Assembly: GCA_003024785.1 (NCBI GenBank)
Contig: PUQB01000555.1
Location: 62,001-126,000 of the forward strand
DNA: 64,000 nt
Direction: 5' to 3'
Source: Selaginella tamariscina
Taxonomy: Eukaryota > Streptophyta > Lycopodiopsida > Selaginellales > Selaginellaceae
Part shown: in pieces, positions 15,510 through 39,594 of the stretch
Numbering within the stretch: the first letter of the stretch is position 1
Layout of the letters: the number at the start of each line of letters is the position of its first letter
The notes under the pieces: generated by a model
Databases searched by the model: none
What the model was told of the DNA's origin: nothing
What the model saw: only the letters and a program-made list of their open reading frames with translations
Translations under genes and position numbers: made by a program

Positions 15510-15535
15510 ATGCAAGTTGTAACTAAAATGGGCAT
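15510..15535 (+). repeat. Left terminal inverted repeat of E2
   Basis: 26 bp starting ATGCAAGTTGTAACTAAAAT and ending GGGCAT. It pairs with the right terminus 39,569-39,594. The same left end occurs at 14,466 and 57,653. The next ~480 bp are AT-rich without a gene. Confidence 0.8.
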
Positions 15536-16027
15536 AGTTATAGTCCCATTTCTTAATAATTAACAATTTTAACTATTTAATTAGCATTTCTAATATTAAA
15601 GGAATATTCTTTAGAATATATGTTTGAAAAATAAGATATATTCTTTAGAATATTCTATTTTGTATTCGACCTTTTAATAAATTATAGCATTCATTGAACA
15701 AAAATTAATAACATTATAAAAGTAGAAAGTATAAATATATAATATATTGCCTAATATAACAATTAAGAAAGAGCATAAGAGGTACATTATATAAATATTG
15801 ATGTTGTTATTAAAATATAATATTTAAACATAACATTATTAATTAAAAATTTGTAGTAGTAATAATATATATAATAACAAAATCTTATAATAATATATTT
15901 CAATCTTCCATATCGTTTTTTAAATTTATATAGTTAAATAAACAATTTGGTACTATTATTAAAGAGTTTATAATAATTATGAATATTAAATATATAATAT
16001 TTTTTTAATTTGTAATTGTTTTAAGCT

Positions 16028-19000
16028 TCAGAAAAACATACATTCCCTTGCAGTTTTGTTAATTGTGACTTTATCAATGCTTCTTGACATCCACCCATAT
16101 CGAATAGATTTACATTTATAAAAATGCTGGGTCTTTTTGATTGGGGACATGTTTTTCTCTAGGCATCCATTATATCTTTTGTTCTCCTTCTTGTGTCGCC
16201 TTTTTTGTGGTTTGAACCATACAACTTTAACAATACTATTTTTTGTGATTACTTCAGATGTGTCGATAATTTGACCCATCCAAATAAGCTGATTATATGA
16301 CGCATCTGAAGTAATGAGAACCATCATTAGTTTTTGAAGATCCCGACAGCAATCAAAGTATGCTTTAAGTTTTTGGTTCTTGTCCAATAAAGTGTAGGAT
16401 TTGCACTTTCACATCACTACTAGCTTCTATGTCGTTTGTTGCTCAGTGATGTCATTTCAATCTCCTCTCACCACCTTGTTTTAAGCCAAAAAGGGTGTTG
16501 CAATTTTGTACTTGTGACAGTAGGCCCTTCCAACTCTCAAACAACAGTCTCCCAATAGTCGACCACATACTTATATAGTTCTGAATAACCAGTTGCCTTA
16601 TCAGAATTCTTTGGCATTGATTTTTGAACCCATGCCACATATTTTTTTAATGCCATTAATAATAACCTCTTGTTCCTTAAGCTGGGCACTCAATGGAATA
16701 GGGTCTGGTTGTCCTTCTGGGAGAAGTGGCTTTCCATTCTCTCCACTTTTGAAGAGCATTAACCCCTCTTTTGGTAACCACTCATGTTCTGATGGCCGTA
16801 ACTTGTACTACATAATAGGTATACCATCTCGTATAGAGAAAAAAGAATTGTAGCGGCACAAGGTGACCAACTAAAGAATCACTCCCCTCTTTTATATACT
16901 TCTTGAGAAATTTTTTGAAGTCTGGCACCTCAGTCACAAGCAATGCACAACTTTTTTTGGAGATGCAATTTTCAAAAAGATTCATCATATGCGGTAAGGT
17001 AAGTGCACTTGTCCTTTTTGTAGAGTTGGAGACCTTGCTGAAGAACGCATCAATATCTTCATGAGTATGACCACCATAAGAAAACTGAGTGTGATTGTTT
17101 CAAACACACCTTTGGCAACAAGCATTGACAAGTATGCTAGTACATATCTAGAAAATAAAAGTATGAGTTTGAGAAACCCTTAAGTAAATGATTTACCTAT
17201 TTTTGTTCTCGCTTATACAATTATCCATCTGTAAAAGCAAATGACGAGGAAGCTTATTTTGATGTTGAGGACACATGTACACTATTTGAGCTAGATCCCC
17301 ATTGAACTGAACTCTCAACAGGGCCATCTATTTTTGTGCAGGCGCTGACAATGCCTCTCATATTCCCAAGTAGCCTCAAGTGCAGACATGTTCATGAAAG
17401 CATTATATAAAGGTTGAAGGTGTTGTTTCTTCATTTGAGATCACTGATAGGATGTGTCTGTGAGTGGGCTTCAAGGTTTTTAAAACACATGGCCAACGAC
17501 CCAATAGTGAAATTGAAGTTGCTAGACCAATGTGGAAGTGAAAGTGTCCATATGACTCATAACCGTGTCCATGTGTTAGCACACTGTCAATGAAATCGAA
17601 AGTTTCATGACATTTTCAAGGCATTTTGGTGTTGCAACGAGCTTTGGAATGCTGGTCTTTGAATGATCCATCTTGTCATGGATCAAGCACAGGTACTCTG
17701 ATGGGCATGACACAGAAAGCATGTGGTGTGCATAGTACTGAGACCGGCAAGTTTTGTTTGCAATCATGTGGGCCTCCATCTCTTTGAATGGCAAGTGATC
17801 TCCACCAAGGTTTTTGCACAAGCCTCTGCAGCCTTCAATGATGTACAAGTGTCACACTTGGAAAAGCTAAAGTGTTTTGCAATCTCCACATCCTTAAAAT
17901 GAGTATTCCATATGTTGTTAAAGGTACCAGTGCAGATTGCTTGCAGCCATCAAACTGAGGCACTTGTTCACATGTTCACACAGCTTCAAATTGAGTGTAG
18001 ATTGAAGGCAAAACCTTGAGATTTTCCCTGACCCCTACATTTGTGGTTCGGCATTTGTGAGGCATCCTATCTGGATTTGCTTCCACAAAAGCCTTGAGTA
18101 TCTCTATGGCTGCCATAATGTGAGAGCGGGTTTTGACCAAGCAAGTGTTCCCATGTACTGAGGTTCGAGCTCCATCTAGCCACTCATCCCTCCAACGGTA
18201 GAACGTGGTCTTTGGGATCCCGTATATACTGTACCAAGCTTTGAAGCAGATGGCAACCTTATTAAATACCATGGATGTACTCTGATAACCTGTGTTCGAG
18301 CCATTCCATCAATACACCCAGTTAGTGCAGCATATTACAAACTCATGCCTTTGCTTTTGGGTGAGCGTACGAAGACATGTCTACATTGGGTAATTTCTTC
18401 CGGTCTGCCATCTGACAACACTTCTTCTTGCCAGTCAATCGTAGAAATGCTCGTAACACTTTCAGAAGATGTAGGATTCATCTTGACCCTCTTGTTGAAA
18501 CTTGCAGGGGAAGATCTGCAACCCATGAATCGCCTTTTTCGTACAATAGGACCAATGCAAGGAACCTCTTCAAATATGAGTTGTTCTTTCTAGGTTGTTA
18601 TTATTAAAATCCAACCCAGAATATGTTGAACCATCTTGCTGTCTTAATTCAGATGTTCGCCACCTCACGAGGGATCCAGGATGCAAAGTGCCATTCGGTG
18701 AAACCTCTGTCACAACCACACCCACAAAGTCGGACCCTAGTTTCTCTTCTGACACTGCTTCCATTGGATTTATAGTTGTGATGATGCCTCTCCCAACCTC
18801 AATCTCATGAAGAAAGAGAATCTCTCATCCATCACAGCAGGCAAGCCATCATCTGGAAAACTCGTGCTACTGTTTGTTTGTGACTCTGTATATTCTGTGT
18901 CAGCCTTGACTTCATCCAAATTCCACAATACAGGAGAACCCTCCTCAATTCCATTTCTGGAACCTCAACATGCTTGAAAATGGTGTTCACCCATACGTAC

Positions 19001-19170
19001 ACAGAAGATCCTTGGGCAATATTGTGACATGATACATTATCATCTCAAACTTCCACAGTTCCAGTGCCAACTATCTCGTTGTTCCGAAGAAGATGGTAAG
19101 GGGATTTGGAATTAACTTGGTCATATTTCAAACTAAATGGGAAGCGCATTGGAACAATTTATCTCCAGTA
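16028..19170 (-). pseudogene. DUF7869-like putative transposase gene (degenerate, E2 copy)
   Basis: The minus strand shows an N-terminal segment (NNEIVGTGTVEV, HNIAQGSSVYVWVN), then KAWYSIYGIPKTTFYRWRDE (helix-turn-helix-like, about 18,190-18,250). Next are LYIIEGCRGL, LCLIHDKMDHSKTSIPKL (about 17,640-17,700), LQMDNC..ENKNR (about 17,200-17,235) and GGHTHEDIDAFFSKVS (about 17,035-17,080). I recall this motif series from DUF7869-type proteins of mosses, algae and invertebrates. The spaced acidic residues would suit an RNase-H-fold nuclease; that is inference. It is broken: one in-frame TGA near 19,055 is CGA in the E1 copy, and the frame changes several times. Some changes may be introns, for example after NKNR where GTAAAT follows. 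It is the first gene in both E1 and E2, so it is a candidate mobility gene. Confidence 0.6.
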
Positions 19171-19328
19171 TTATACATATTGTCTGCACATAAATAATTG
19201 TGTTATTTATGATATCTGTTTATGCAATATTTCTAAGAAACATAACTGCGGTTATTTAATAATATGCATGTGCAAATAATACATATTATGTATAAAGATA
19301 ATATCTCATGCTTTATTAATACAACTGA

Positions 19329-19620
19329 TGGGCGGGATTAATCCCGCCCACGACTCCATCCGACGAGGAACGATGGGCAGGATTAATCCTGCCGTCGACT
19401 CTACCCATCGGAGAGAGTCGGCGGGATTAATCCTGCCGTCGATTCCCTCCCACGAGGAAGAATCGGCGGGATTAAATCCCGCTGGCCGATTCCTCCCACG
19501 AGGAAGAATCGGTAGGATTAATCCCGCCGCCGGTACTTTTCTCGTTGGAGAGAGGCAGCGGGTTTAATCCCGCTGCAGACTCCCTTCGACGAGGAAGTAC
19601 CGGCGGGATTAATCCCGCTG
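19329..19620. repeat. Palindrome array 1 (GGCGGGATTAATCCCGCC)
   Basis: Seven copies of an 18-bp palindrome, some with one or two changes, spaced about 40-45 bp. The spacers are themselves partly self-complementary, for example cgactct..agagtcg and gattcctc..gaagaatc. It separates the DUF7869-like gene from the SAM/TNP2 module. A segment of 200-300 bp is repeated in the same order and direction in array 2 (from about 29,308). Confidence 0.9.
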
Positions 19621-20020
19621 ATTCTTCCTCGCAGGCACTGGAAATGTTTTTTGATGAGTTTTATACAAGATTTTGACGTAAACCACTTTCTAAAAGCACA
19701 TATGTGTAAATGTAAAATGTTGGATACAATCGCATATGCGTTTTAAGCCAATGTTTGGAAGCATTATTTTGGGCAAGGTTATCTTTTGTGTTTACAGAGA
19801 GGTTTAAGTAATGTTTTTGACATGGTTTTATGTACTTGTTTTTATAGGGACTTTTATTGGTGTTTATGTGATTGTTTATGTGCCGGTATTGACATGATTT
19901 ATTATCTATGTTTTTAAAGGAGTTAATGTTGCACAGTAAGATTTAAGTCACCTCAAATAGTATATTAAACATAATTATTTATAATTAGATTTCATGGATA
20001 GATTATAGCTACAAGTTTAT
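19621..20020. other. Spacer, no gene seen
   Basis: 400 bp of AT-rich sequence between array 1 and the 3' end of the SAM-domain gene. It probably holds the 3' untranslated region of that gene. Confidence 0.4.
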
Positions 20021-23000
20021 TTAAAACTGTCGTCCATCCCACTTTTTAGTTTTCCAGGCAGCCTCGTTGATTTCCACAGTTCCAGTCTCAACACAGGCAC
20101 TTGCAAACTCCTTTAGAACTTGAAGACTATTGTTTTTCGTCTTTTTGTAAATATTTAGCTCCCACCCCTTTTCCTGTGCAAAGTTAACACAATCATTGAC
20201 CTTCACTGCCCGAGGACCATCCTTGCTTAGAAGTTTATACACAAGAAGCTTATGTTCAAAAGCAGATCTGCCAGCAATATTTGCTCTCCAATCATCAGGA
20301 AGAATAGGAACCTAATATAAAATTGAAGAACATATTAGCTCAACTACTAAACTTGAACGGGAATTACCTTGTTCTTGTTCTGGATAGTAAGATTCGTGGT
20401 CGATGTTTGTACAATAGGACTTTTAGTCTTTGTTTGCTGTAAGACAATTGTGAGCCGAGTATAGAAAAGACAAATTAACATACCTGCACATCTCTAGATT
20501 TGGAACTGGTTTTAGGTTCTATATGGCTGCCATCTTCATCAAGGATGTCGGACTTTGATAGTCGCTCTTTCGGATACTTAATAAACCATCCACCTGATCC
20601 ACACAAGTCGTCGAAGTTTTGAACGTCAGGTTCAGGTGGGAATGGAAGCGTTGTCTTCAACATATGCTGGTGGATATCCTTTCTGTAAATCTTCAGTTTT
20701 ACACAATCAGGACCCAACGCTACACAGTGGACTGTTGCGTTAGGGTTCACTTCCTCAACCACAGCGCATCCAATATGAGCTCCTATTTCTGACTTTAAAT
20801 AAACTCTGTCGCCTTTCTTACACTCTACGAAAGCCTGAGAATTACTTGTGGCCTGAAACACCAATTAAATTCATAAATAATGTGAATGAAGCTCTTACCT
20901 GCTTCTGAATGTCAGAGTTGTTTGTAACCTGGTCCAGGTTGTTGCTACTTGATCCTGTATGAATGAATTAGCACGAATTAAAAATTATATGCATACGTAC
21001 CTCTTGTACTACATCTGCTCGATTTGGAGAAGGTTCATGCTCCTGGAAGTACATGTAATCAAAGAATGAAAAACATAAATTGAAATATACCTCAAGTGCG
21101 TCCCTTAGTGAAAAAGTATATTGTTGTGCTCTAGATGAAGTTATTACTTGTTCTTGTTCTCGTGGGGTACTCTGAGTCTGACCATCCTCACCGCCATTGG
21201 AAGCAACTTTATCTCCATTGTACCTCTGACTTGAAGATAGTAAGCGGCCTTTTTCTCTCTGCATTTACAAGTTAATATAAGACCTATCTTCTAGAGTTAT
21301 GTTTAGCCCACCTTACGACTATGATTTGATTTCTTCTTCCTAGTAGTTGCCTCTAATTTAGTGCTCTAATTCAAAGCAGTCAGCAAACAAAAAAAAATAG
21401 TTTAAAAGCATATTGGACATGAACTTACCTGCTCGTCCTCGTCAATATGGTGACCTTCAGATTCTTGTGATGTGCCTATGTGAAGTAAAGCATTCATATT
21501 TTAAAATAGAAAACAAACTCGCTTCAGGTGTAAAAAATTACCTCCGCTTCAGGTCGTCTCAGCTTGCCATTTGTAGCAGCCTACTTAATGTGTTAGAGTA
21601 TACATAATAATAGAGTTTAAAATCATGCCTGCTCGTCAACGTCAATATGGTTGGCTTCAAATTCGTCATGCATCACCTGAAAAATTCAAGTCTTAATACA
21701 GAATACTAGCAATATAAAAGGTGCAGAAATTACCCGCAATCCATGTTGTCTCAGCGGTATGCCATTTGTAGCAGCCTAGCCAATGTGTTAGAGTATACAA
21801 TACATACATAACCTATAATAACATATATACTAAATGCATACTTGTGCTACAGTTTCTGGGTCCTTGGAATTTGAGAATGAGGAGCCTCAATATCGTCATG
21901 TTCCTCCTCTTCGTCCTATGTACATGTGAAATAAAGCATTGTGGTTAAAACAAAATAAATTACGAAGCCGTTACACAATCTTACCCCGACTCAAAACTCA
22001 TCTGTCGTTTAAATCTTTGTTGCTTCCCATTCTTAACAACCTGCTCAATGTGTTAATAGCTAAGTGTACATGATAAACACCCACCTCTACTACATGTTTG
22101 TGGCTTCTTTGATTTTGAAGAGGAATAGTTGTGTCGTCCTCCTCTTCATACACCCTCTGTACTCAATGTAAGAATGCATCTGACTATTATAACACTTACC
22201 TTATTAATGGGATGTTTCTGGTGTCTACTTGCATTGTTCTCATCCGACTTCTCAACCTCTGTAGAGTTATCCCCGTCCAAGTTGTCCTCGATATCATCAT
22301 CATCTCCATACTCGTTCTTGTCTTCTAACTCAGCATCCTTGAATTTTTGGTCCTGCACGCAAGTGGTCATGCACTCTGGCCACTTCACAAGTTCCTGCAA
22401 CAATCACATAAACACAATTATCTAAAAATGAAGAAGAGAACTTGCATGAGTACCTCAAGTTGTATGTCATCAATCTTTTTAATTGATCTAGGAACAAACA
22501 GTCCTGCAGCTCGGCCACCCATAGTCTTCACGCGGAGTCTAAAAAAGGTGATACCACCTTCCTCGCAAATGCTTTCCACAACAGCAGACCCGGCAGTTAC
22601 ACAATCTCGTTTATAGAACTTCGGATGGCTCATTCGAGCTCTTTGCAGTCGCTGAAAAAATGAGCAAAGCTCCCTGTCAACCGGAAACTTTGCAGCTATA
22701 AGCCTGACCATAGTTTCCCCAAATGTATACTGTCTTCGAGGATAATTCATCTTTTCATGCTTGTACAACCGCCGTCGTTGGTTACTAAGAACATCCACAA
22801 TAATGGTGCTGATGAAGTCTTCAGGACATGTATATCGGGTGCCATCTGGAAATTCTATACATGGCATCTCTTTATCGTCAGCTAGTTCTTGAACAAGGTC
22901 TTCTTTCTTCTCTATCCAGAATGAATCCTTTTTTTTATCCTTGAATGATGCCTTGAGGAAATTCGGAAATACTGTATAGACATGTTCGCGGATCCGCCTG

Positions 23001-24103
23001 GAGCACTGAACACGAGTCATCCACTGCTTAGCCCAGCCTGCTCTCTTCAGCGCCCACTTCCCACTACAGACCTTGTTTTTGAAACTTCCATGAACTCGCC
23101 AACAATCACTGGGGGATGGTGTCTCCCCTGCTTCCATGTTGCAAATCGCAGCTCGCCGGTCATTCATTTTCATTTTCTTTGGTGGAGTTTTTGGTATGGA
23201 ACCATCTGAAGATGTCGACGCTTATGCCAAGACTCCGTACGATCGCTTTCCTGGCGCACACTGTCACCATCAATCTCTGAGACCTTGAAGTTGTCTTCTG
23301 ATTTCCCAGAGGAGAAAATGCTTGCAAAGCCTGCTTTTGCCTTCATTAGTTGAATGCTGTTCACTATTCCCTCGGCAACACCAAATGGAAAACCAAGATG
23401 TTGAAGCTTGGAGGCCGTGAGATTGACAATCGAATTTCCATGCAGCGCATGCTCATAGCATAGTTGTGTGATGTGTTCTTCATATGTTGGGAATTTAGCA
23501 CAAATAAAATCAATAACCTCGTCGACACCCCAATCCATCAAATCCATGAGAGACACTTTTGATAACGTTTGAGCCATCTTCTTCCTTGCTCCTGCAATGA
23601 TAAAACAATGAGAACCCCGCGACCTTAAACTATAGAGTTTGCTTACTAAAAACGTTTTGTCCCTTAGGAAGTCGGTGGAGTGGACTAGAGGCCCTCTCTA
23701 CACCAGTCTCAATACTCGCAGAAACCCCTTGACGTTGAGAAGCTGTTGGAGAGAATGAAGATACCCCAACTCGGCCGTGAGATGTTCTAGAGACCCCAGC
23801 TTCATGCCGAGGTCGGCCGTAGGAAGCTGTCGATAATCCAACTTGGCGCCGAGGGCTGGGTCTTACCCCATGTCGATGTTGAGGACTACACACCTCTGTA
23901 GGACCTATTTCGATTGGGGATGCTCGACATCGAGTACCTTGTCTCATCTGATGTCGATCCTGAGGAGTACATGTCATTGTAGCAAATCGGGGAGGCTCGG
24001 CTCGGATCGGAGATCCTGCAAACCGGGATGGATACCCATCTTCAAATCCTAAAAAGCTATCCTCTGGCTGCATATAGAAATGCAGATCCTCAGCGCTACC
24101 CAA
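20021..24103 (-). CDS. Spliced SAM-domain protein gene of E2
   Basis: Start codon at 24,103. The first exons are 24,103-23,647, 23,591-23,268, 23,205-22,454, 22,394-22,200 and 22,156 on. Their GT-AG junctions keep one reading frame. Further short exons run to a last exon 20,311-20,021. The product has a basic, serine-rich N-terminus, a SAM-like domain in exon 2 (WGVDEVIDFICAKFPTYEEH ... LTASKLQHLGFPFGVAEGIV) and a conserved unknown domain in exon 3 (YTVFPNFLKASF, PDGTRYTCPEDF, RRQYTFGETMVRLIA). An acidic linker and a tudor/BAH-like segment follow (GDRVYLKSEIGAHIGCAVVE, about 20,720-20,820). SAM domains mediate protein-protein binding, so this may be an accessory factor like CACTA TNPA; that role is inference. 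Phase was not resolved for some exons between 22,000 and 21,400, so a small defect there is possible. It is divergent from the TNP2-like gene. Confidence 0.65.
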
Positions 24104-25392
24104 AAACCCTTGCCTATGAATGTCTGGTTTAAAAAACCCTTCCTCTACAAAGCACCTCGCATTTATGCCTTAATCCATTTTTGAAAACATGGCTGCGGCG
24201 GGAGTTCCACTTATTCCAAACACACTTTGTCTGCTCCACTCCATTATCTAGAATAGTGGAATGCGAAAACATGCCCTTTGTATATAAACCACCAGGGTCC
24301 CGCAACCAATGGTCAGGATCAAATAGCCGATGGACAACCCAGATCTACGAAATCCCTCAAGCATTCTACCGTGTAGTTGCTGTTAATGGTGCTCTTTATG
24401 TACATGTTCATCTTGTTGTTTCAAGGATTTGATGTATGTGTCATGAAAGTGCTTTGTAGATTGATTGTTTCCATTCTTTTGGACAAGGTTCATTTTCTAG
24501 CTCTATTTAATATAATTTATCACAGCGATTGTAGGAAACAAGACAATATAAGGGGGTACACACCAAACCTGAGCAGATGCTATATAGTGAGAAAATATCT
24601 TGGTAGGTGTATATGCATTACGGATGCTTCCTTGCTTGTGAGCAAAAATAATATGCAATTATGTTATTCAAATCTCCACAATTGCGAAAAGTGCTTCTGA
24701 TGCAAAGAATATTATCCAATCCGTGGTTCAATTTTTGACTACAACCTGTTATAACATCAACAGAGAAGGTATGCCTCTCAAGTTTCACAAACCATTAACA
24801 TTGCTAGTCTACTTTGCAGATGTTTCATCAGTTGCTTGGAAGAGAGAAGTGGTTTCCTGGCTACTTCTGAGATCTTATATGTCGGTGTAGCTAGACATAC
24901 TAGACATTGTTATCTGAACATATCTCTGCACACTACTCTGGCTCTATCAACTTCACTCTACCTCAGCTCAAACCTGATATATGCAGCTAGCTCCATGATG
25001 ATCAGGCTCCCACCGTGCACTACTTGGATTCACAGTTAGCATTTGTGAACATACTTGTACCAAAGCTGGTGTAGGCGTTTTACCACTTCAGGCATTTCTA
25101 CCACTGCTCCTTCTAGTTAAAGCATGCTAAGGCCACTACAACAACAACACAAATGGCCCATACACACCAAAAATAGCAACTTGAAACTTGAAACTTGAAA
25201 AATCTTCCAAGGCGTTTGTAGCACGAATCTGTAGGAGATTGCACAGCATCATACGACTCTAGCATGGCCATGAAATCAGCACAAAAATCACATTCATCAT
25301 ATACATCCATTAGATTGAATATATAGAGGCAAAACTACAACTAGCATTTAGGGTTCATTTTGTTTGATACTGTGAGTAGGAGGGACAATGTG
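24104..25392. promoter_or_regulatory. Divergent intergenic region of the SAM and TNP2-like genes
   Basis: 1.3 kb between two start codons facing away from each other. No convincing open frame. It presumably holds both promoters. I cannot assign TATA boxes with confidence in this AT-rich sequence. Confidence 0.45.
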
Positions 25393-28300
25393 ATGGCCCC
25401 GCCGAATAGGGCAGACGTTCAATGCTTCTGCAAAAGGTGTGGCACAAGAGGGTTGTGGATTTCTCCCCAGCTAGCTCGTGTTCACAGAAATGCCAAGCGA
25501 CTATCAATCAAGCAAGCTCAATCTCAGCATCAGGAAAACAAGAATGTCGACGTCTTTCAATGTAAGTGCCCCAAGTGTTTGAATGACCAAGGTGAAGGGA
25601 TTTGGCGGCAAAGGTCTGGGCACAGCAAACACATTGAAGCCGTCCTTCGAGCGTCACAACGTTCATTTGAAGGACAGGGTACATATCTTTATTGCCTTGA
25701 CGTTTATAATTTATTTTGTTCATTCTGTGCAGATGATATAGAGGCTGAGCTCTTTGCACAGACTGGAATGGATGTTGAGGCACCCTCTGATCATGAGGAA
25801 GCTTTTGAGGACGTAGATGATGCCTTAGATGCAGCAGATTTAGATGCCCAACAAGATTTGCGGCCAATTCTCCAAGTGTCGAAACCCATACATCGTGATG
25901 ACCAAATTTTCATGAAAGTTTTGGAGCTTTTGTCAATTTGCCATCAACACATGTGCTCTGAATCTTTCATCGACAAACTTTTGAAGATAATTTTTGGGAA
26001 GAGAGGTCCTGAAGGGGAGTGTCTGGCTGCATTATTGAGCACCCGAGGAAATTGGAATGGCCGCCTTCGAAACATAAAGGTCCCACATAGTTGGGACACT
26101 TTGAAGAGTATGTATAGGCTTCTTGGGATTCCAGAGCTTGAGAGGCATGCAGTATGCTTTCATACAGGAGGCCAACCTTATGAATTCCCCATGTACATTG
26201 ACCAGAAGATGACAGTAGCTAAAAAGAGTGAACAATGCCCAATCTGCAAAAAGTATCGACAACAAGCTGTGGAATATATTTATATCCCCTTAGCACCTCG
26301 GTTACAAGTAAGATGCAAGTCCAGCACTGTGAACTACAATGACTTGACCCCCTTTCGAGACTTCACCAACAAGAAAAATCGGAAGGAGATCTGGCACTGT
26401 GCAAAATGGGAACGCTACTCTGCTTTTTGGGATCCAAGATTGGAGTGGGAATTACCAGCACACTGTAAATGTTCCAGATACATTCAAGCTTGGCCTTCAA
26501 AGCATGAAGCATTGTTACAAGCAGAGAAGACAGCTACACGAGATGGTGTGTATGAAGTTCAATGCCCTACATGCAAATCGAAATTCAACCACAGGCCAAT
26601 ATATGTCAAAGGCAACCCACGGAATTTGGCCCTTATGATTCACGCAGATGGATTCAAGGCAAATACTACGAGAGTGAAGAATGTATATGCCTTCAATGTC
26701 GTGGTTATGAACGGTGGAAGCCGTGGTCTTAAAGAGGTTGAGGAGCTTGTGTTGCCGAGCTTATATGTCAACAAGGAACCACTGCAACATGGTCCAATTG
26801 CTTGGATATTTTTTTCAACCGCTTAGTGACTGAGCTCGAGCAACTATTCTATGAAGGCGTTCCAGTTCAGTATGCAATGGAGATCAATGGACAACCACGT
26901 CAATTTCAGCAACGTGCCATGGTTTTTGCACTAACTGCTGATTTGGTGGCAACCTGTGAGCTCGTGAAGATGTCATTTAGTAAGTTTTTTTTGTTTTTGA
27001 AGAAATAGATATTTCATATCAATGTTTGGTTCTAATTTTGGTTTTTAGTGGGAAGCGTACCATGTAGACGTTGCTTGGTGACTACTAATAACAGGAAGTA
27101 CACTGAGGTACTGAAGAAGACACGCTTCCCAGATGAGAGCCGACATATGAAGCATGTTGAGGCTGGGGTTAAACATCTTGAAGAAGGTTCCCAATCAGAG
27201 GCTTGGGATCTTGGAGTGAGAGGTAAATCTGTGCTTATGAGGCTTTGGGAACAACAAGGATTTGATATTCTGCATGATACTGTCTGGGATGCACTACACA
27301 CAATTGCACTAAAATTGTGTAAAGTGACAAATGAGGTGATGTGGGAAACTTTGAAGAAGGAAAAAAGGTGAAAGTTGCAGAAGCACGACTAAGAACCATG
27401 CTTGCAGCTAGGACCTCACAAATGAGAAGAGGACGACCACCTGACAAGCCGTCTGAGCGGATTAGTTTCTGGAAAGCGGACGAGCACCAACATTTTTCAC
27501 AGTGGTATGCCAACTATGTTTTTGCAAACTTATTTTCTGATCCTAGGGATGAGGAGCTTTGTAAGCTCACGACAGAGATCACCCGACTTTTTTATGATTA
27601 TGCAAGGGACAATGGCTGGTCTGATGACACACTACACATAGCACAGAAACTTTGTCAAGCGTGGCGTGTGAAGTGGGTGGAAAGGCATGGAGAGGATGCG
27701 ATGATATTGCTACATGCAGTAGGTGCTGGACATCTTTTTGATGACATCCGCCGAATTGGGCCGTGTGACTGTACTTGGTGTTATACTTTTGAGCGTTTAT
27801 TTTCAGAGCTCAACAGGGTGAAGACAAACTCTAAGCAGATGGAGATAACATTTAGTAGGCATCATAACAGGCTTTTTTTCTCAAGGATCCAAAGGTTACT
27901 TTCGAGTGAACAAGAAGGATTGAACCCAGAGGAGAGGTGGGAACATGTTTTATTAACATGCATTGTTGGAGCAGAACATGGGAAACCAAATTCAGGTAAG
28001 AAAAAGTATTTATTTCTTTGTTTGTAGCTAATTTGGCTTTTTTTTACCAAGGTTACATAAATGCTGGAAGTCAAGACATTGCAAAGCAGATATGGGAAAG
28101 AGCTACAGACTCTGATTGGGAGGATTTAATAGCTGAGAAAGGAGTAGTCATTGGAGCTAGAAAGGTCAGACAAATTGATGAAGTTGAGGTTGGTGCATTG
28201 GCAGCTATGTACAACAAGGATCCGCTTGTGTTGGAGGGCATAGAGGTCATTGTATTCCAACAACTTCTAATGGCTGGCAGTATTTTTGGACGGAAAAACT

Positions 28301-28927
28301 CGAATTTGGTCATCAAGAACAACAACATTATGGATCTTCCTATAATTGCAAGATTCAGATATGCTTTTGTTGTATACCTCGATGGCCAGTACAAGGTAAA
28401 TATACAATAGTTTATATGTGGGTGTAACTAACATCCCTGACTTATAGGTATTATTTGCAGCGGATCAGTATCGTTATGAGTATGTACAGAGGAAGGTGGC
28501 TATTGATCAATTTAGCGGAATGCACTTACTCGCAAAACAGGAGAAGAAGTTTTCATCTGAATGCATTTTGCCAGTAAGTTTCATTCAACGTGAGATTTGT
28601 ATTTTGCCAATTAGGGATGGAAAGCACCCAGGTATAAAGCTCGCATGGGAGATCAAGACCCTCACAGCCAGTCGCTTCTTTCAAAATGTGGACACAGATA
28701 TAACGCCAGCAATCTACCCAGTGTCTGGTGATATTATACAACTTCGAGCTCCAAAGTATGCCAAAGAACCGTGGTTTGGTTTGGTGACAGAGGTAGAGTA
28801 TAATTTGAAGAAAGTGAAGGTCACTTGGCTTAAAAAAATTGATGATGATGACTCTGATTACTTGAAATTTTTGTTGGATCCCCAACCTGACTTGGCTTGC
28901 ATGGGATTCAATCGTCAAGTCTTTTGA
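25393..28927 (+). CDS. TNP2-like (CACTA/En-Spm type) transposase gene, five exons
   Basis: Exons 25,393-25,678, 25,733-26,979, 27,049-27,995, 28,052-28,395 and 28,448-28,927 are joined by GT-AG introns in phase. The N-terminus has cysteine pairs (CFCKRCGTRG, CKCPKC). The middle carries LALMIHADGFKAN and VEELVLPSLYV, followed by LGVRGKSVLMRLW, DTVWDALHTIALKL and IGPCDCTWCYTFERLFSELN. This order matches Transposase_21 of plant CACTA elements, where D-DALH and the FERLF block belong to the core. The C-terminus has a BAH/tudor-like segment, SGDIIQLRAPKYAKEPWFGL. Frame slips lie at a T run (26,809-26,815) and an A run (27,361-27,366), one base each, so this copy is either slightly broken or affected by homopolymer errors. 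The expected role is cutting and joining element ends. Confidence 0.75.
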
Positions 28928-29249
28928 AGTACATAAGAAAGTAGTATATGATCATAAAGTTGTATTTTTTGTTAAATAGATTTAAATATTATCATATATT
29001 TTTCTGTGTTACTTTTTGAAACATGTACACAAAAAAGGAAGATAACAAAATGAACTACTACACAAACTAATCAAACCGGAATGCCTATGTGTTCTTAAGA
29101 TGTAAAAAAAAAATCGTCAAAAACACACTCAACATATGAGTTCTTACATATGTTTCTAAGTTTTCAACGTAAAACATCGATACACATGTGTTTCTTTACC
29201 TTTGTGTATGTGTTTTATTATGGAGTTTTTTGGAACTTTTCTAGTGGGG

Positions 29250-30060
29250 AGGTAATCGGCGGCGGGATTAATCCACCGCAAATCCCTCCGACGAGGAAGA
29301 GGGGGCGGGATTAATCCCGCCCACGACTCCATCTGACGAGGAACGATGGGCGGGATTAATCCCGCCGTCGACTCTACCCCATCGGAGAGAGTCGGCGGGA
29401 TTAATCCCGCCGCCGGTACTTCCTCGTCGAAGAGAGGCGGCGGGATTAATCCCGTTGCGGACTCCCTTTGACGAGGAAGTACCGGTGGGATTAATCATGC
29501 CGATTCTTCCTTGCCGGAGGGAATTGGCGGCGGGATTAATCCTACCGCAAATCCCTCCGACGAGGAAGAGGGGGCAGGATTAATCCCGCCCACAACACTG
29601 ACGAAGAAGAATAAGCAGCGGGATTAATCCCGCCACAACTCTGACGACGGGGAATAAGCGGCAGGATTAATCCCGCCCACAACTCTCTCCGAAACTATGA
29701 TTTCAAAGAGATTCGGGATGAATCTGCCTACAAATATTTAAAACAGGAAAGTGGTGGCGAGATTAATCCCGCCACCCCTTCTCTGCCTCCTAAAATGGTT
29801 GGCGAGATTAATCCGTAAATAACTCTTTTTAATAAATTTAAGTAACTCTTTATTAATTGAGAGAGTTATCGGCGGGATTAATCCCGCTGCTCTTTTTAAG
29901 AGGGGAGAAGTATTGTCTGGACTAATTTTGCCATAGCTATTAAAGAGATGGTGGCGGGATTAATCCCGCCACCTTTTCAAAGAGGCAAAAAAAATGGCCG
30001 GATTAATCCGCCACCCGGCTAACCGAGAATATTAAGTTAGAAGTATATTTAAACGGGATA
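29250..30060. repeat. Palindrome array 2
   Basis: About 15 copies of the GGCGGGATTAATCCCGCC palindrome, from near-perfect to degenerate. The first ~250 bp repeat the order seen in array 1. The later units are more degenerate and spaced by AT-rich sequence. Confidence 0.9.
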
Positions 30061-30103
30061 AATCCCTAACAGCATATATTGTAATCCTAATGCATTCCTA
30101 AAT
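30061..30103. repeat. Border sequence shared with the array in E1
   Basis: The stretch ataaatccctaacag ... gtaatcctaatg, directly after array 2, resembles the end of the E1 array at 45,650-45,692 (ataaatcctaacaa ... gcaatcttaatg). It may be an old terminal sequence of a smaller element. Confidence 0.5.
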
Positions 30104-32613
30104 CTAAATTCTAAAATTTAAGAGAGAATGTAAGGAGTGAATCTTTATAATATATTTAAATTTGTTTATAATACTTACTTGTAAACAGTACTGAAGGCGC
30201 CGTGTTTTCTTATAAACAATAGTGCACCCAATTTAATGTTGCTCCTGAGCTGATCACTAAGAAGAAAAAAAAATTGAAGAGTGAAAAATAAAGAAATGAA
30301 GAAACCCTTGCCGGAGAAAGAACCAGATCTGAATTTGAGTGGGAAATTAAATGCATTTTCAAATTTACATGTCAGACCGACAATACTTATGTCAAAATTC
30401 GAAATTTTTGAAATAACAGAAAAGAAAATTTAAAATGAGTTGAAACAAATAACCGACAGTCTGACATATATACTCTCCAATTCCAATGAGTGTTTTAAAA
30501 TTGCATTTAATGTCATTCAAGTGCTTCAAGCTGTTTAATATTACAAATTTTTGTAATTATTCTACATTCTTAATATTCAATATATTATTAAGTTTATATT
30601 TATATATATATACACTAATACAATAAATAAATTGATATATTATTATGTATCATTTAAAATATATTCATAGTCTATTTATTATATTATTTTCTTAATTACT
30701 CGAGTAATTAATTTACATTTCCTACTATTAATGGATATTCTTTATTATTTTCTTAATATTCAAAGAAATATTCCAATATTAAACCTGATTATCTTAAATA
30801 TTTCAGTAATTATTCTACATTTGTATATATTAATGGGATTTTCTCAATTAATTTGTTATTATTTCAAGAATATTCCTATGTTAAACCTTATTATCAATAT
30901 TAAATTAATATATATTATTAAAACTATATATGACTATATATTAGATAAAATGATGTATTATTATGTATAATTTAAAATATGTTCATAGTGTGTATATTAA
31001 TATCATTTTCTTAAATACTTGAGTAATTAATCTTCTTTATATTAATGGGATATTCTTTATTATTTTCTTATTATTCCAAGAATATTCCAATATTAAACAT
31101 GATTATCATAATTAATTTAGTTAATTATTTCAGTACTTGATCTACATTTGTATATATTAATGGGATTTTCTCAATTAAATTCTTATTATTTCAAGAATAT
31201 TCCAGTGTTAAACCTTATTATCAATATTAAATTAATATATATTATTAAAACTATATATGGCTATATATTAGATAAAATCATATATTATTATGTAAATATG
31301 TTCATAATGTGTTTATTAATATTATTTTCTTAATTATTCGATGTTTGTTTTGCACACATATATAAACACAATCATAAATTTATATATACACGTGCACATG
31401 CATTAGAAGCACTTACAGAGACATATATGCACACACATGCACATTGCCTTAAACCAAACTTGAGAAATATATGTTGCTTCTTTATTAAAAAACATCATGT
31501 TCAACGCATGTATGATCTATATGTACTCAGGTGTGTATGTAACGCATTAAATTTAAACATGTAATATATATGTATATCTGTGTGTATGTATATATGTGTA
31601 CTAATATATGCAATGTGTACGATTTCATTTGTTAACACTCTATCTCTTCTCTCATACATACACAGTGTCACCATGCATAATCCCACCATATAATATGTAC
31701 TGATGTTACAATATATATAATATGTATAATGTATATCTGTGTATAACACTCACTCCTCTCATACATAAACACCATGCATGATCCATCCAAACCTAAACCT
31801 AAACCCTAAACCCTATGTAACACATTGAATTTACACACAATATGTATGTATGTCTATGTGTACACACGTGTGTATATATATGTGTGTACTAATATATCCA
31901 ATGTGTATGAATTTAATTTGTTAACACTCTTTCTCTTCTCTTATACATACACACCATACATGATCCATATTAATATGTACTGTCTCTTCTCTCAAACATA
32001 CACACCATGCATGATCCATAATATGTATTGTCACTCTTCTCTCATACATACACACTATGCATGATCATGTACTCTGTCTCTCTAATATTAATATGTATTA
32101 ATATGTAGTATGTCTATTGTATAATACTATGTGTGTATATATGTATTGCTGCACATGAAACTTTAACATCTCATGGACACACACATGTTAAACACCTACA
32201 TGATTTTTATTCTTGGGTGTATGTGATACACCCACGCACACGCACACGCTGATAATATAATGAAAAATATTCGTTTAGGGCGAATCTATAGTTTATTCTT
32301 TTTAGGGTTTAAATATATTCTTAAAAGGAATATTCGATTAAGGTTAATATATATTCTATTTCTTTTAGGGTTTAGGTATATTCCTAGGGTTTCAAGAAGT
32401 AAAGCGGCGAAGGCGGTGGCTGTGAAATCTCCTTCTCTCTCTCACACACAGGTGAGATCTCTCTCTCTCACACGCTGTGCACTCCTGAGTTTATTTATTT
32501 ATTTTTATTCACATATATATTTATATGTGTGTATCTTAATAATATAATTTAAATCTCTATCTCTCGCACACACACGCACACTCGTATACATATACATACA
32601 CACACACACACAC

Positions 32614-32657
<44 letters not shown>

Positions 32658-33407
32658 CACAAATATATATATATATATATATATCTGTGTGTGTTTGTGT
32701 TTGTGTATCTGTATAATTTTATTAATTTATTAATTTTATCTCTTGCACACGCACGCACACTCCTGTTTATCTGTATGATTTTATTTGTTTCGCTCACACA
32801 CGCATACTCACGATATACATACACACACACACACACATATATATATACCTATATACATATATATACATACATATATATGTGTACCAGTATCTGTATAATT
32901 CTATTTATTTATCTATTTCTCGCACACACACGCACACTCCTATACATATATATATATATATATAACACACACACATATATATGTGTGTATCTGTATAATT
33001 TTATTGATTTGTTAATTGTATCTCTCGCACACACACGCACACTCCTGTATATATATATATATGTGTGTGTATGTTTGTTTATCTGTATGATTTTATTTGT
33101 TTCACACACGCATACACACGATATACACACACATATATATATATACCTATGTACATATATACATACATATATTATGTGTACCAATATCTGTATAATTTTA
33201 TTTATCTATCTCTCGCACACACACACACACTCCTGTATATACATAACGTATACATAAATATACATATACATATATGTGTGTGTGTGTATCTGTATAATTT
33301 AATTTACTTAGCACACACATACGATATACATATACATATACATATGTGTGTGTGTATCAGTATAATTTTATGATTTGTCTATCTCTGGCACACACACGCA
33401 CTCTCCT

Positions 33408-33465
<58 letters not shown>
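30104..33465. repeat. AT-rich region with TA and CA/TG microsatellites
   Basis: 3.4 kb without a credible gene. From 30,700 to 31,350 a ~430-bp AT-rich unit occurs twice (attaatgggattttctcaatt near 30,829 and 31,157). From 31,500 to 32,060 there are degenerate repeats with catacacaccatgcatgatcc. From 32,560 to 33,465 long (CA)n, (TG)n and (TA)n tracts alternate in units of about 150-250 bp containing gtgtatctgtataatttta. Open frames here are translated microsatellites. Confidence 0.85.
31790..31815. repeat. Short interstitial telomere-type repeat
   Basis: A few units of ccctaaa/cctaaac. This matches the plant telomere unit but is far too short to be a telomere. Confidence 0.6.
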
Positions 33466-33469
<4 letters not shown>

Positions 33470-34515
33470 AGCGGTGGGATTAGTCTCGCCGCCTACGGAT
33501 GCCCTGCGCGAAATCCGCGGGATTTATCCCTGCCGCCATTGGCCTGTCTGAAGGGCCTAGGTGGCGGGATTAATCCCGCCGAATTTCGCACAGGGCATTG
33601 GCGTCCGACGGGATTAATCCGCCGCGTACGCATGCCTTGTGCGGAATCCGGCGGGATTAATCCCGTCGCCAAAGGCCTGTATGAAGGGCCTAGGCGACGA
33701 GATTAATCCCGCCGGATTCTGCACAGGGCATTGGCGTCCGGCGGGATTAATCCGTCGAGTACGCATGCCCTGCACGGAATTCGACGGGATTAATCTCGCT
33801 GCCAAAGGCCTGCATAAAGGGCCTAAAAGCAGGATTAATCCCGCCCGATTCCGCGCAGGCATTGGCGTCATGCAGGATTAATCCCGCCGCCTAGGGCCCG
33901 AGTGAAGGACCTGGGCAGCGGGATTAATCCCACTGCCCCACGCAGAATTGGGCAGGATTAATCCCGCCGCCAAAGTCCTGCCTGAAGGGCCTAAGCGGCG
34001 GGATTAATCCCGCCCGATTCCACGCAGGGCATTGGCGTCGGCGGGATTAATCCCGCCTGATTCACGCAGGGCATTAGCGTTCGGCGGATTAATCCCGCCG
34101 CCTAGGGACCGAGTGAAGGCCTGGGCAGCGGGATTAATCCCGCCGAGCCTTCAATGCCTGTTGGAGGATGAATCCGCCACCCTTCCCTTTTTTCTCCATT
34201 GGTGAGTCGGACCAATCCCAAACGTTTCTGTCTGAGACGTAGAAGGTTTACAACATACCAATGGAGGGGACTGGGAAGGGTGCGAGATTCATTTCACTAC
34301 CCTTACATGGTGGGCGAGATTAATCCCGCCGCCTTTCTGGAGTCACTGAAGGGGTGTGCCAAATAAATCCTGCCAAATTCTCTCTGAGACTGAGAAGGGT
34401 GGCAGATTAATTCCGCACTCCCGTTCAAGGCCTCAGAAAGGTGGCGAGATTAATCCCGCCCACTCTTTCAGGAGGCATTGAAGGGGTGGCGAGATTAATC
34501 CCCGCACCTTCCATG
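33470..34515. repeat. Palindrome array 3
   Basis: At least 20 copies of the palindrome. Spacers alternate between a sequence and its reverse complement: gcacagggcattggcgtcc is followed by near-complements such as cgcatgccttgtgcgg. Others are hairpins such as aggcctg..aagggcct. The whole block is a chain of mirrored modules. A (TG)n tract lies directly to its left. Confidence 0.9.
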
Positions 34516-34608
34516 TGAATATATATGAATATATTTATTGCATATCTCATTTTATTTACTTTTATCATCTTATCATAATATTTCAGTAAAAGCTAGGAAT
34601 CTATGTAA

Positions 34609-34829: not shown

Positions 34830-37800
34830 TATGGAGTCGTCGTCAAATTCTGGGTAAGAATTAAAATAAAATCTGTTATACTCGGAATGTGCTTGAACTA
34901 ATCATTTTTGTATTCAGATGTGGAATTGAGGTGACATTAAAGATGAGAGCAGAGAAGAGATGGGCAGGGGGATTCTGGAATCAACTTGGCCATATTTAAA
35001 CTAAACGGGAAGCGCATTGGAACAACCATGGTTGTTATCAAACTAACCTCTGTCACATCGCATGGCAAGCAAAACAATGGAAAGTGGGTGTGCTAGTCAA
35101 GCATCCGAAAGCATGCTGTGAACCCAATTGAACGATGCTCGACACATATGCCTTGTTCCATCCAATGTCACGTTCTCGGATCCAGAGGTCGCTAGTTACA
35201 ACATTAATTTCGGGTGGTCTTGTCGACTTGTGGATAATGACGTTCACATGTTCACTAATGATGTTGATTGTGGAGTTCTTCTTCAACTCAACGAAAGCCC
35301 ATCTATGGAGGGATCCAACTGGATGTCTACTTCGAAGATCTTCAGACTCATCGAGTAGGTATTCTCAGAGATATGCTTCACAATACAGAAAATCCACAAG
35401 TGGAGCAATTGTCCCTCTTCACATTGAAGAAAACCAACGAACATCAAAGGAGATTGAGAGGGTGGCTTGGTCTCAGGTTCTTTACAGATCACGTTCAATT
35501 TGCTTAGAAATTTCGGGAGCTGGAAGAGTGTGCCGAGAACATTAGAACAGCATCAATCGGGGATCACACATGTTGATTCGGATCGTAAAGAAAATCTCGT
35601 TTTGTCAGCTGCACCTGTGGCATCCCATGCTGCAATAAGCCACAAGGAAATGATGTTGGGATGATAGGATTTACGAGTGTAGGGTTAATATTGCAGCGTC
35701 AACCCAAACTTCAATTACAGGCCACTCAACCAGGAACGTGTAGCTGAGCTCATGGAGAAGATGAAGGACGACAATTCTTACACCGTTCCACATAATGCTG
35801 TTTTGTGCGCATACTAGAGAGAAACAAAGGCGCTGACAAAGTGTGGATCACAACACCGGAACAAATGAGGAAGGTTCAGACGGAGAATAGAAAATCATCA
35901 AGTACTACATCATTAGTGGCCAGCACACAATAACGGCAGCCCAACGACTTCTCGACGAACACAACAAAGGAACGATGGCAACAAAACTTTCCGAGCATAC
36001 CCGTGAGAAGCTGACGAAAAGATCGGCGTTTTTAGCGAAGCCGAATCTCACAATCGAGCAGTACCATAAGTTATCGGCGGAATGGGACGCTGCAGACACC
36101 AACCACTACAACAGCAAAATATGGGAGAAGTTCAAACACACGCGAGCCGTGTGGGAATCTCTTCAGCGACCACAAAGAGCTACCAGGGAATACACAATCT
36201 GCGGACTACCGGGTAAGCAAATTGTTTGGGCGGGATTTATCTCGCCGGTATATTAATCTGTCTTTTTTCTCAGAGAGTTGAAGAAATTTAGCAGTTGATT
36301 TTGCCCAGGTGGGCGGGAAGGAAACATCCTTTTTGATGATGTTGATTTCTTGTCCCGAGGATAGGATCTTTGCCAAATGGTTGGGGATTATGGAATCCTT
36401 TGCAAAAGGAACACTGAAGAAGAAGCAGACAAGTGAAGGGAGCCCTCAGAGAAGTCTGCAAAGAAACCCAGTAAGACGCCGAAGGCTAAGTCTGTTCAAT
36501 CTATAAAGGATGTAGACAACGATTTCAAGCTCACATGGTTGAAGCCTTTAAATGGAACAACGATGGAGGAGATGGAAGTCTTGGCTGATTTGGTGATTGA
36601 TGGCAAATTACAGATTAACAACAGCAGCCCACCTCTCCTTTTCATCTCAAGGCAATGGAGTTGAAGACGGTCAGGCACTTCAAGGAGTGGTTGGGAATAC
36701 ACTGCCACAAACTGGGTTGGACCTCGGCTTCAACATACGAAGAGGTCAGCAAATATTTGCATGTGACAAACGATGATATGCTTGTCGAATGGGTGAATCA
36801 ATCGGAAGATCTGGGCAAGAATCTATTGCACGCCAACGCCAAAAAGGAGAACATTGCGATGACGCCTTCTCTTATGGCAGTCCTTCAGCAGCGGAGAACC
36901 GAGTTGAACCTTATAAAGGAGGATGCTACGAATCACGACAAGCCCTACAGATGTTTGTTGTTGGATTCGGAGACTTTATGGGGTACATCACTGCTTGTAG
37001 GAAACCGTTTCAATTGTTCGTGATGGATCGGCGGGTGTCAAAAAATCCTTCGACAGACAGGACACTAGAGGATTTGGTGGAGAAACTTAGCCGTGCAAGC
37101 ATGTACAAAGAAGGTATTTATTATTGAATTCATACTTGCACTCTTGACTGATACGTTTTCAGGTATTTATTTCTTGATTCTTGCTCATGTCACCGATACC
37201 TTTGCCTTCGCCTTTGCCAAGAGGAATAAACATCGTTGGACAGGATTTTATATGAATGATGATCCGAAGTGCATTGATTCGGTTGTTCACTTGGTTGTTA
37301 GGAATGCGCCAAACATTTCAAACTTCCAAATGACTGGCCAGGCATCTGTTTGCACTCCAACGGCCCTGAACCTCCATCCGATACACCGATAGGAGAGTGA
37401 CGTATTCGGCAATGTACGTTATCCAAACATACAAGTCAAGCGGCACGGAGCATCGTCAACTTGATCAGGGGTCCTCACAGTGATGCGTGGGTTTTTGACT
37501 ACTGCACTAGGGGGTCCGTCTTGAAGGAGTGTTACCTTCGGATACATGTGTGTTTGCCGTTGAAAAGGATAAGACCATGGTTGAGGACCTGAACAAGTGG
37601 ATAGAGATTCTCAACTGATACCCCAACGAATCCATAAAGGAGTATTTGAGAAAGTTCCCTCCGATAAGTGCGATAGCTCTGAAGACGAATCTGGTTCAAT
37701 GTCGGAGTCTGAGACGAACTTCAATCAGATATTAGACCGGAAGTTATCTCGAGGAGTACAGAACATTCACACCCATGGAAACATCAATAGAAGATAGAAG

Positions 37801-37860
37801 ATCTTGAACCATCTCACAAGCGGCTTAGACCTTCTTCGCCTCACTCAGAAGGTAATAGCG
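34830..37860 (+). pseudogene. Decayed multi-exon region of unknown function
   Basis: Plus-strand open stretches with intron-like GT..AG gaps but frequent frame changes: FKLNGKRIGT (about 35,010), VTFSDPEVASYNINFGW (35,180), LFTLKKTNEHQRRL (35,420), FKEWLGIHCHKLGWTSAST (36,680), DTFAFAFAKRNKHRWTGFY (37,200). I do not recognise a family. About 60 bp near 34,980 (aacttgg.catattt.aaact) also occur near 19,110, beside the DUF7869-like gene. A lone palindrome unit lies at about 36,228-36,246. Confidence 0.45.
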
Positions 37861-38189
37861 AAGAAGAATTGTTAATGAGTTTTAGAGTGACGAATAGTTG
37901 TAAATGAGTGTAACATAAGGCATTTTTGTATATTTTTTATATTTGTACAGAAAATAAATTCTCAAGGATTAATGAAGCTTTTAGTTCAAACATGGGTCAC
38001 ACATTAACAAGGTAAATAATATACCTTGATAATTTTAAGGTCAGCTAATTATCATTTTGCAGATGTAATGAAACATTGAGAACATGGATTTTCAGCATTG
38101 CATGAGGTAAGAGAGGGGTTTGGCGACAATTTCTTGTGCCACATGTCAGAATGACAGAGTTCATGCAGGAAATGGATAATAATGCAGCT

Positions 38190-39124
38190 CAAAACATCGT
38201 TACCATGGGGGCCACTTCAGTTTTTTCATCATCATTTTATTGGCTTCAGTTCCGAAATCAATTTCTTCAGCGCATGCAATATCTGAATCTTGTAAGGATG
38301 ATGTACAATTAAATGATGAAGGGATAGGCAACGAGATAGTGCAACGGATAAATGTGAAAGGGAGCAAACAAGTGATTTGCAAAGTATTCAAGAGGCAACG
38401 CTATCCATGTTACTCATGGCCATATTGTGTTGTTGGATGTCAATGGTGTTCTGCTTCATCGACAAAGGCCCGAGGATAGGAAAAAAGAAATCAAACAAGG
38501 AGATTTCATTCCTTGTCATGGTAAATTTCGATATGATATTATTTTTCGTCCAGGGTTGGATCGTCTCTTTCAAAAGCTTAAGGAGATGGGTGCGCTTGTG
38601 GGGATTTGGTCATGCATGCAGATTCATAACTTAACACCGCTGTTGAATTTGCTTAAGAAACATTGTAGTGTTGCAGAAGAGGTGATTCGTAAAGATTGGA
38701 TTTTTGACCAGCGAATGTTATAAACCTCTCGAATTTCACAATATAAGAAAGGAAAGCAAGCCATACTTCTTCAAGAATGAAAGAATAATTGGGACTCATG
38801 GGGAGATCAGTCGCTTAAGGATAATGAAGAATGCACATATCTTAGTAGTAGACGACTCTCCTCAGAAGGCTATGCTCAACCAAAACATTGCTTGTATTCA
38901 TCCAATCACTTTCGATCCATATTCTGATACGATATCATGGATGAGCTAGTGAACTACTTGGATACGTGCCTCAGAAAGAAGAATCTCGAAAATTTTTGTG
39001 AGCAGTATCCACCGTATCATACATTTCCTGAAGCTTTTCTTTCTCGTGATTTTGAATTTTATAAAATGAAGGATAGCAACCGGGCGCTTTATAATATTAT
39101 TCTTAAGGAACGTCATTTTAGATG
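38190..39124 (+). pseudogene. FCP1/NIF-like HAD phosphatase fragment, probably captured
   Basis: The plus strand encodes HAD motif I as LLDVNGVLLHR (about 38,425), then FRPGLDRLFQKL and VGIWSC (38,550-38,610). A late block VVDDSPQKAML (about 38,845) carries the DDSP metal-binding pair, followed by a C-terminal DELVNYLDTCLRKKNLENF. This order is that of plant FCP1-homology (NLI-interacting factor-like) proteins, which are aspartate-based phosphatases. The frame changes near 38,420, 38,710 and 38,945, so this copy is unlikely to be active unless some changes are introns. It lies 470 bp from the right end of E2, which suggests a captured host gene. Confidence 0.65.
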
Positions 39125-39568
39125 AGCCTTTATGCAGACCTTCTTATACATCTTATGTATTAACAAGGATGGCAACTCCCAATTGCATTCGTGAGAGTGT
39201 TAAGGTGGTAACAACATCAAGATATTGACCAAAATGATTTGATTAATCCGAGAGTGATGATTTAGACAAAATGAAAGATTTCTTGTATTAAGAAAGTATT
39301 TATAAAAAAATTAACATGTTGATAAGAAAATGATTTCATTTGTAATTATGTTTGATAGTATTTCTTCATTATTGTAAACTATTTTTAGAATAATATGAAT
39401 ATTCTAAGATATTTTAGGAATATTCCTTACTAAGTAAGGTTATTGAAGGATTAATTAATTAATTAATTAATATTTAAGGCTTAATTACATATTAATTAAA
39501 TGATTAATTAATAATTAAAACTTAAGTATTAATTAGTAATTTATTTTATATTCCCATTTTCACGTATC
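39125..39568. other. AT-rich right subterminal region of E2
   Basis: No gene. Contains attaatt runs and the GGAATATTC-type motif also present in the left subterminal region. Confidence 0.5.
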
Positions 39569-39594
39569 ATGCCCACTTTAGTTACAACGTGCAT
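39569..39594 (-). repeat. Right terminal inverted repeat of E2
   Basis: Read inward on the minus strand it starts ATGCACGTTGTAACTAAAGT and ends GGGCAT. It is followed outside by ACAT and then the continuation of the split LTR. Confidence 0.8.

Follow-up and report, generated by a model that had tools for sequence, protein, structure and literature searches.

How did a segment of 24,085 bp come to lie inside a single long terminal repeat (LTR) of Selaginella tamariscina, and which enzyme put it there? We have analyzed this question in 64,000 nucleotides of contig PUQB01000555.1 (assembly GCA_003024785.1, positions 62,001 to 126,000 of the forward strand), a stretch referred to below as the window. 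The segment, designated E2, occupies positions 15510-39594 of the window. The first part of the question has a plain answer: E2 arrived by one insertion. For the second part, we give slightly better than an even chance to the reading that E2 results from a single insertion of a cut-and-paste DNA transposon into the nuclear genome, moved by a transposase of the tnp2 type. The features discussed here are listed in Table 1.

E2 is one insertion in an LTR

The terminal inverted repeats of E2 are 26 bp long and identical at 24 of 26 positions, giving the element the ends ATGCA..TGCAT; beyond these 26 bp the left and right ends show no clear likeness. In 20 shuffles of the window, searched on both strands, the 26-bp end was not matched at 3 mismatches or fewer. 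The preliminary description of this DNA had placed the inverted ends beside ACAT and had read the outer flanks as the first 42 bp and the remainder of one LTR, and both statements are borne out. When the flanks were joined with a single ACAT and aligned to other LTR copies in the window as an empty-site test, the alignment ran through the junction without a gap in four copies, at 12350-12586 (85%), 48221-48027 (84%), 4019-3823 (84%) and 9862-9655 (78%). The joined flanks also align across the junction to a 69-bp piece (39797-39865, 86%) within the target LTR's own remainder. All five matches have just one 4-bp unit there; in the 69-bp piece, and in none of the other four, it is ACAT. Thus the flanks restore an LTR with a single 4-bp site, as expected of one insertion with a 4-bp duplication. 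The restored LTR establishes a single insertion of E2; it does not imply that all contents of E2 arrived at the same time. The end pattern of E2 had no match in viral contigs, and a slightly looser pattern had none in genome contigs, a collection made up of bacteria and archaea only.

Relatives of E2 and order of insertion

A search for the family end that allowed up to 8 mismatches found it at 14466, 15510 and 57653 on the forward strand and reversed at 39594, with 0 to 2 mismatches. The inverted pair reported earlier stands; the window contains four copies of the end rather than two. The two additional left ends belong to an older family member, E1, and to a third copy, E3; right ends of E1 and E3 were not found within the window. 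ACAT, which occupies 0.7% of window positions, precedes both E2 and E3, and E1 is preceded by GGAA. E1 is interrupted by the target LTR: its left part (14466-15467) is collinear with E2 15510-16414 (72%), and its continuation (42156-45049) with E2 16410-19431 (79%). CACAT stands at either edge of the LTR, at 15463-15467 and at 42156-42160, as a 5-bp duplication, and E2 has a single CACAT at the corresponding place. Since E1 is split by the LTR with its CACAT duplication and E2 lies inside the LTR, the insertions occurred in the order E1, LTR, E2. E1 also contains a 560-bp inverted repeat (74%) at 45133-45692.

Table 1. Features of the E2 locus, in window coordinates
Feature	Position	Strand	Remarks
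E1, left part, older family member	14466..15467	+	starts with the same end as E2
Target LTR, first 42 bp	15468..15509	+	
Target-site duplication ACAT, left	15506..15509		
Left terminal inverted repeat of E2	15510..15535	+	ATGCAAGTTGTAACTAAAATGGGCAT
DUF7869 gene, decayed	16455..19044	-	read-through PF25273, E 1.2e-37
Palindrome array 1	19332..19618		6 matches
Multi-exon gene, SAM-like domain (~23.5-23.3 kb)	20024..24169	-	exon limits by eye
tnp2-type transposase gene	25393..28924	+	three introns, two frame breaks in model; exon limits by eye
Palindrome array 2	29262..30012		14 matches
Palindrome array 3	33474..34504		19 matches; one more at 36230
Decayed gene, weak ParB-like motif ~35.9 kb	35122..37794	+	no Pfam match
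Phosphatase-like gene (NIF/FCP1)	38376..39122	+	PF03031, E 1.7e-7
Right terminal inverted repeat of E2	39569..39594	-	reversed, from 39594 to 39569: ATGCACGTTGTAACTAAAGTGGGCAT
Target-site duplication ACAT, right	39595..39598		
Target LTR, remainder	39599..42155	+	LTR ~2.6 kb in all without E2
E1, continued past LTR	42156..45692	+	DUF7869 relic and palindromes
DUF7869 relic in E1	42156-44771		
E3, third left end	57653..57945	+	like E2 over ~290 bp; ACAT directly before

Transposase-like and SAM-like genes

Two transposase-like genes had been noted in E2, and profile searches agree with this, assigning one to PF02992 and the other to PF25273. The first was translated by splicing out three GT..AG introns and writing X at each of two frame breaks. 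The resulting read-through matches PF02992 (Transposase_21/tnp2) with 31.7 bits against a cut-off of 28.6 (E 1.1e-7); no single exon alone gave a PF02992 match that reached the cut-off. By eye, the second Asp is followed by a C-x2-C, a feature of the CACTA group (PMC12730594; here and below, published rules and systems are taken from extracts of the cited papers). The CMCT clade has both C(2)C and a His pair, H(3-4)H, between the second D and the last E; the His pair was not identified with confidence in the read-through.

The gene on the opposite strand beside it had been described as carrying a SAM domain. It has no SAM or other convincing Pfam match, yet a structure model of a 175-amino-acid piece points to the same assignment: the eight best fold matches are all SAM domains, the best with probability 0.99. 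This model is poor overall, with a predicted local distance difference test score of 52.7, and good for residues 61-120, with block means of 73-91. The exon at 20.5-20.9 kb of the same gene shares a domain with the N-termini of DUF7869 proteins (16.8 bits; the best of 1000 shuffles reached 7.0). This N-terminal domain is not clearly seen in E2's own DUF7869 gene (0.4 bits).

The DUF7869 gene is heavily decayed, and even a single piece of it matches PF25273 at 1.1e-15. Over 1.94 kb aligned to P0001 there are 14 frameshifts and 4 stops; the counts are 18 and 3 with P0005 and 15 and 4 with P0003. Between the E1 and E2 copies 434 of 2655 sites (16%) differ, and the divergence by codon position is 0.125, 0.123 and 0.161 (p 0.20). 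In the absence of a clear codon-position pattern both copies look like fossils. A pairwise alignment, which records differences only, has 20 gaps in E2 and 28 in E1, of which 19 and 25, respectively, are not multiples of three. The gene may have died before E1 and E2 split or after.

DDE transposases have an RNase H fold with conserved acidic residues. The DUF7869 family also shows conserved acidic residues, and its fold is probably transposase/integrase-like; its relatives include proteins of bryophytes, sponges, corals and molluscs. Foldseek searches with DUF7869 gave no match at E<=0.001 in the PDB or among viral models; the best values were 8e-3 (a CAST transpososome) and 5e-3 (a putative transposase), respectively. 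Against PDB sequences the family profile returned a single row, polyhedrin, at E 0.45. In viral contigs 161 stretches fit the DUF7869 pattern and none was confirmed as a relative. The name DUF7869 was not found in the literature searched.

Palindrome arrays

The three palindrome arrays of the preliminary description are upheld by match counts against shuffled sequence. The 16-bp palindrome GCGGGATTAATCCCGC, counted with up to 3 mismatches, has 44 matches in the window, 40 in E2 and 4 in E1 and none elsewhere, compared with a shuffled mean of 0.05. Neighbouring palindromes are spaced 42-47 bp apart in 30 of 43 steps, and many of the spacers are, by eye, partly self-complementary. Folded as single-stranded DNA, 29250-29700 is more stable than 100 of 100 shuffles (z -15), as is expected for such repeats. 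Part of array 2 resembles array 1 at 80% in direct orientation. These two arrays flank the SAM-like and tnp2-type genes (the SAM-tnp2 block), and the visible part of E1 lacks that block; recombination between the two direct repeats would explain E1. A long simple-sequence block of CA/TA type lies between arrays 2 and 3 (32490-33500).

Which transposase moved E2

In the mechanism that we propose, the acting enzyme is a tnp2-type DDE transposase (CACTA group), produced from the gene at 25.4-28.9 kb or from a live sister copy; it would have bound the 26-bp ends, excised E2 and inserted it at a target site cleaved 4 bp apart on the two strands. Further steps are more tentative. TnpA of Spm/En binds subterminal repeats (PMC2613891), and by analogy the SAM-like protein may be a DNA-binding partner that assembles on the palindrome arrays and draws the ends together. 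DUF7869, a putative second DDE-type protein, may already have been dead in the E2 copy; the phosphatase-like gene was probably captured from the host; and recombination between arrays 1 and 2 may have removed the SAM-tnp2 block from E1. The comparison of lesions within E2 favours tnp2. The tnp2 gene has two breaks in 3.36 kb and the SAM-like gene at most one in ~1.3 kb of modelled exons, as against the frameshifts and stops of DUF7869 given above; the contrast has p 9e-6 for frameshifts and 1e-7 when stops are included.

Several observations weigh against this proposal or parts of it. The lesion comparison is itself tilted towards tnp2 because the tnp2 exons were chosen for being open, the SAM-like gene enters without its later small exons, and the DUF7869 count covers an intron stretch. 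The gene adjoining the left end of E1 as well as of E2 is DUF7869, not tnp2, and tnp2 was not seen in E1 or E3. Protein relatives of tnp2 were absent from 3396 candidates at E<=0.001 and from 7987 scored at E<=1, in a search of limited sensitivity. The SAM fold matches have E values of 0.15 at best. The arrays lie inside the element and not in subterminal position: 3.8 kb separate the left end from the first match, and 3.3 kb the last match from the right end. The E2 ends differ from the CA..TG usual in the tnp2 group. Finally, E1 45285-45692 has a weak match (66%) to E2 29717-30092, beyond array 1; this is weaker evidence, since the stretch is complementary to itself and can be aligned with E2 in both orientations.

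The alternative that best survives these data, which we hold to be possible at distinctly less than an even chance, is that DUF7869 is the transposase of the family, acting from a live copy elsewhere, with the SAM-tnp2 block as a passenger or as a tnp2 element that landed later; the family might then be Sola. The position of DUF7869 next to the left end and the fold of its family speak for this. The 4-bp duplication is compatible with either enzyme, and a younger, nested SAM-tnp2 block would also account for the lesion contrast. Sola2 elements have ends of 12-21 bp and AT-rich 4-bp duplications (PMC3627910), and a 21.5-kb Sola1 of Ectocarpus has a ParB-like/methyltransferase gene opposite its transposase strand (PMC12477816); the decayed plus-strand gene of E2 has a weak ParB-like motif. 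The ParB homology of that gene is not established, however, and in E1 as in E2 DUF7869 is badly damaged, its divergence between the two showing no codon-position pattern. Nor did a separate element around the SAM-tnp2 block come to light: between 19636-20500 and 28900-29260, outside the arrays, there are 3 inverted matches, none with a matching flank of 2-9 bp, and ends inside the arrays are possible. A wider test gave 246 inverted matches, of which those inspected were array repeats. We keep tnp2 as the preferred mover at the strength given at the outset.

Classification

E2 carries the tnp2 domain (PF02992) of CACTA/EnSpm elements. Its ATGCA..TGCAT ends are not the CACTA or CAC..GTG ends of that group (PMC12730594, PMC2613891), and its 4-bp duplication is not the 3-bp duplication of CACTA; with the domain present and both of these rules broken, E2 is not filed under CACTA. 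Four base pairs fall within the 2-5 bp of the CMCT clade (PMC12730594) and equal the duplication of Sola (rule for Sola2, PMC3627910). Chapaev resembles E2 in belonging to the larger CMC group and in its 3-4-bp duplication, whereas its CAC..GTG ends, described as invariable, are absent from E2 (PMC4079192). Plavaka has 2-3-bp duplications with TGT..ACA or CATCA..TGATG ends, and KDZ an 8-bp duplication (Zisupton), neither of which E2 shares (PMC12730594). On these published rules we judge E2 to lie outside Chapaev, Plavaka and KDZ; Lanisha and Sola were compared by description only. The earlier statement that no named superfamily combines these ends with this duplication thus holds for groups with readable rules.

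Among described elements, Tgmt* of soybean (CACTA/EnSpm, 20.5 kb) is similar in its PF02992 transposase, introns, giant size, stem-loop-capable repeated motifs and DNA-binding partner protein, the last being putative in E2 (PMC2613891). It differs in its 13-bp CACTA ends and 3-bp duplication, as opposed to the ATGCA..TGCAT ends, 4 bp, internal arrays, SAM-like domain and DUF7869 of E2 (PMC2613891). Sola has short inverted ends as well as the 4-bp duplication (Sola2, PMC3627910), and giant cargo-bearing Sola1 elements occur in Ectocarpus (PMC12477816); a Sola1 of Physcomitrella is listed in PMC9033089. The extracts of PMC3627910 and PMC12477816 mention neither a SAM-like gene nor a palindrome array for Sola. 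The name Sola is also absent from the names shown among the DUF7869 matches, most of which are nameless. The giant EnSpm, KDZ and Sola-1 elements of Ectocarpus are like E2 in being 15-30 kb long with cargo genes, nested insertions and an often dead transposase gene, the maximum running from 15.2 kb (EnSpm) to 30.3 kb (KDZ); the extract that describes them mentions neither DUF7869 nor a SAM-like gene (PMC12477816), and KDZ duplications are 8 bp, as noted. Since giant cargo-bearing elements are known there, size and cargo alone do not make E2 new.

Its gene set is not wholly new either. The preliminary description had ranked E2 as a candidate for an undescribed system; the data support a DNA transposon whose target site can be read and whose relatives lie nearby. 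The novelty is not shown, because the tnp2 read-through exceeds the Pfam cut-off and ties E2 to the known CACTA/CMC group. We judge E2 to be a variant of a giant tnp2-type element, most unusual in its two unrelated proteins of putative DDE type and its internal palindrome arrays.

The superfamily Lanisha is of plant origin, and its authors reportedly work on the moss Ceratodon. That E2 belongs to this tnp2-related plant superfamily (Repbase Reports 2020; Maumus, McDaniel, Carey) is compatible with tnp2 as the mover, and we regard it as rather unlikely. Lanisha is described as a recent EnSpm-like lineage of the CMCT group, which has 2-5-bp duplications (PMC12730594), but no tnp2 relative was found among the proteins searched, Ceratodon included, at limited sensitivity. 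Within the literature searched, no paper besides PMC12730594 names it. A broader proposal seems to us improbable as a whole: a giant-element family in which the unrelated DDE-type proteins tnp2 and DUF7869 may at one time have formed a joint transposition machinery, a SAM-like protein assembling on arrays of ~45-bp period, arrays that serve as recombination points giving short copies like E1, and DUF7869 as an unnamed transposase family ranging from bryophytes to sponges, corals and molluscs. Least probable by far, in spite of the three left ends in the window, is that the two ends of E2 come from different copies brought together by assembly or later rearrangement, since a chance pairing would not rebuild one LTR with a single 4-bp site.

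Other genes and the rest of the window

The phosphatase-like gene of the preliminary description was recovered by profile (PF03031). A ParB-methyltransferase was considered for the decayed gene at 35.1-37.8 kb and rejected; besides the lack of a Pfam match, its last piece has no PDB match. Its best match to a gene at 50-53 kb falls at the ParB-like motif (E 0.058). That second gene (50133-52818, minus strand) is broken, bears a ParB-like motif by eye and has no Pfam match. NCBIfam gave no matches for the three proteins tested.

Just past E1, at 45750-46470, lies a retrotransposon-like fragment with a zinc-knuckle motif (by eye), followed by an LTR copy on the other strand. Broken pieces of a Ty3/gypsy-type retrotransposon, with reverse transcriptase and zinc knuckle (by eye), are found at 4897-8301 on the minus strand. 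The AT-rich stretch to the right of E3 contains a direct repeat (57973-58702 and 60215-60994, 93-95%, ~2.25 kb apart). Tandem repeats occur at 52901-53757 and 56891-57195, the second made up of two 98% copies of ~153 bp. Rfam and tRNA searches of the window returned no matches.

Implications

The E2 locus is a readable stack of three mobile insertions. If these findings hold genome-wide, E2 would represent a plant-type lineage of giant DNA transposons, marked by an end sequence of its own, a duplication of 4 bp and a partner gene of SAM-like type. DUF7869, annotated solely as a domain of unknown function, likely has a transposase fold. On the same genome-wide condition, the unnamed DUF7869 proteins of bryophytes, corals, sponges and molluscs would become directly testable as mobile-element enzymes.

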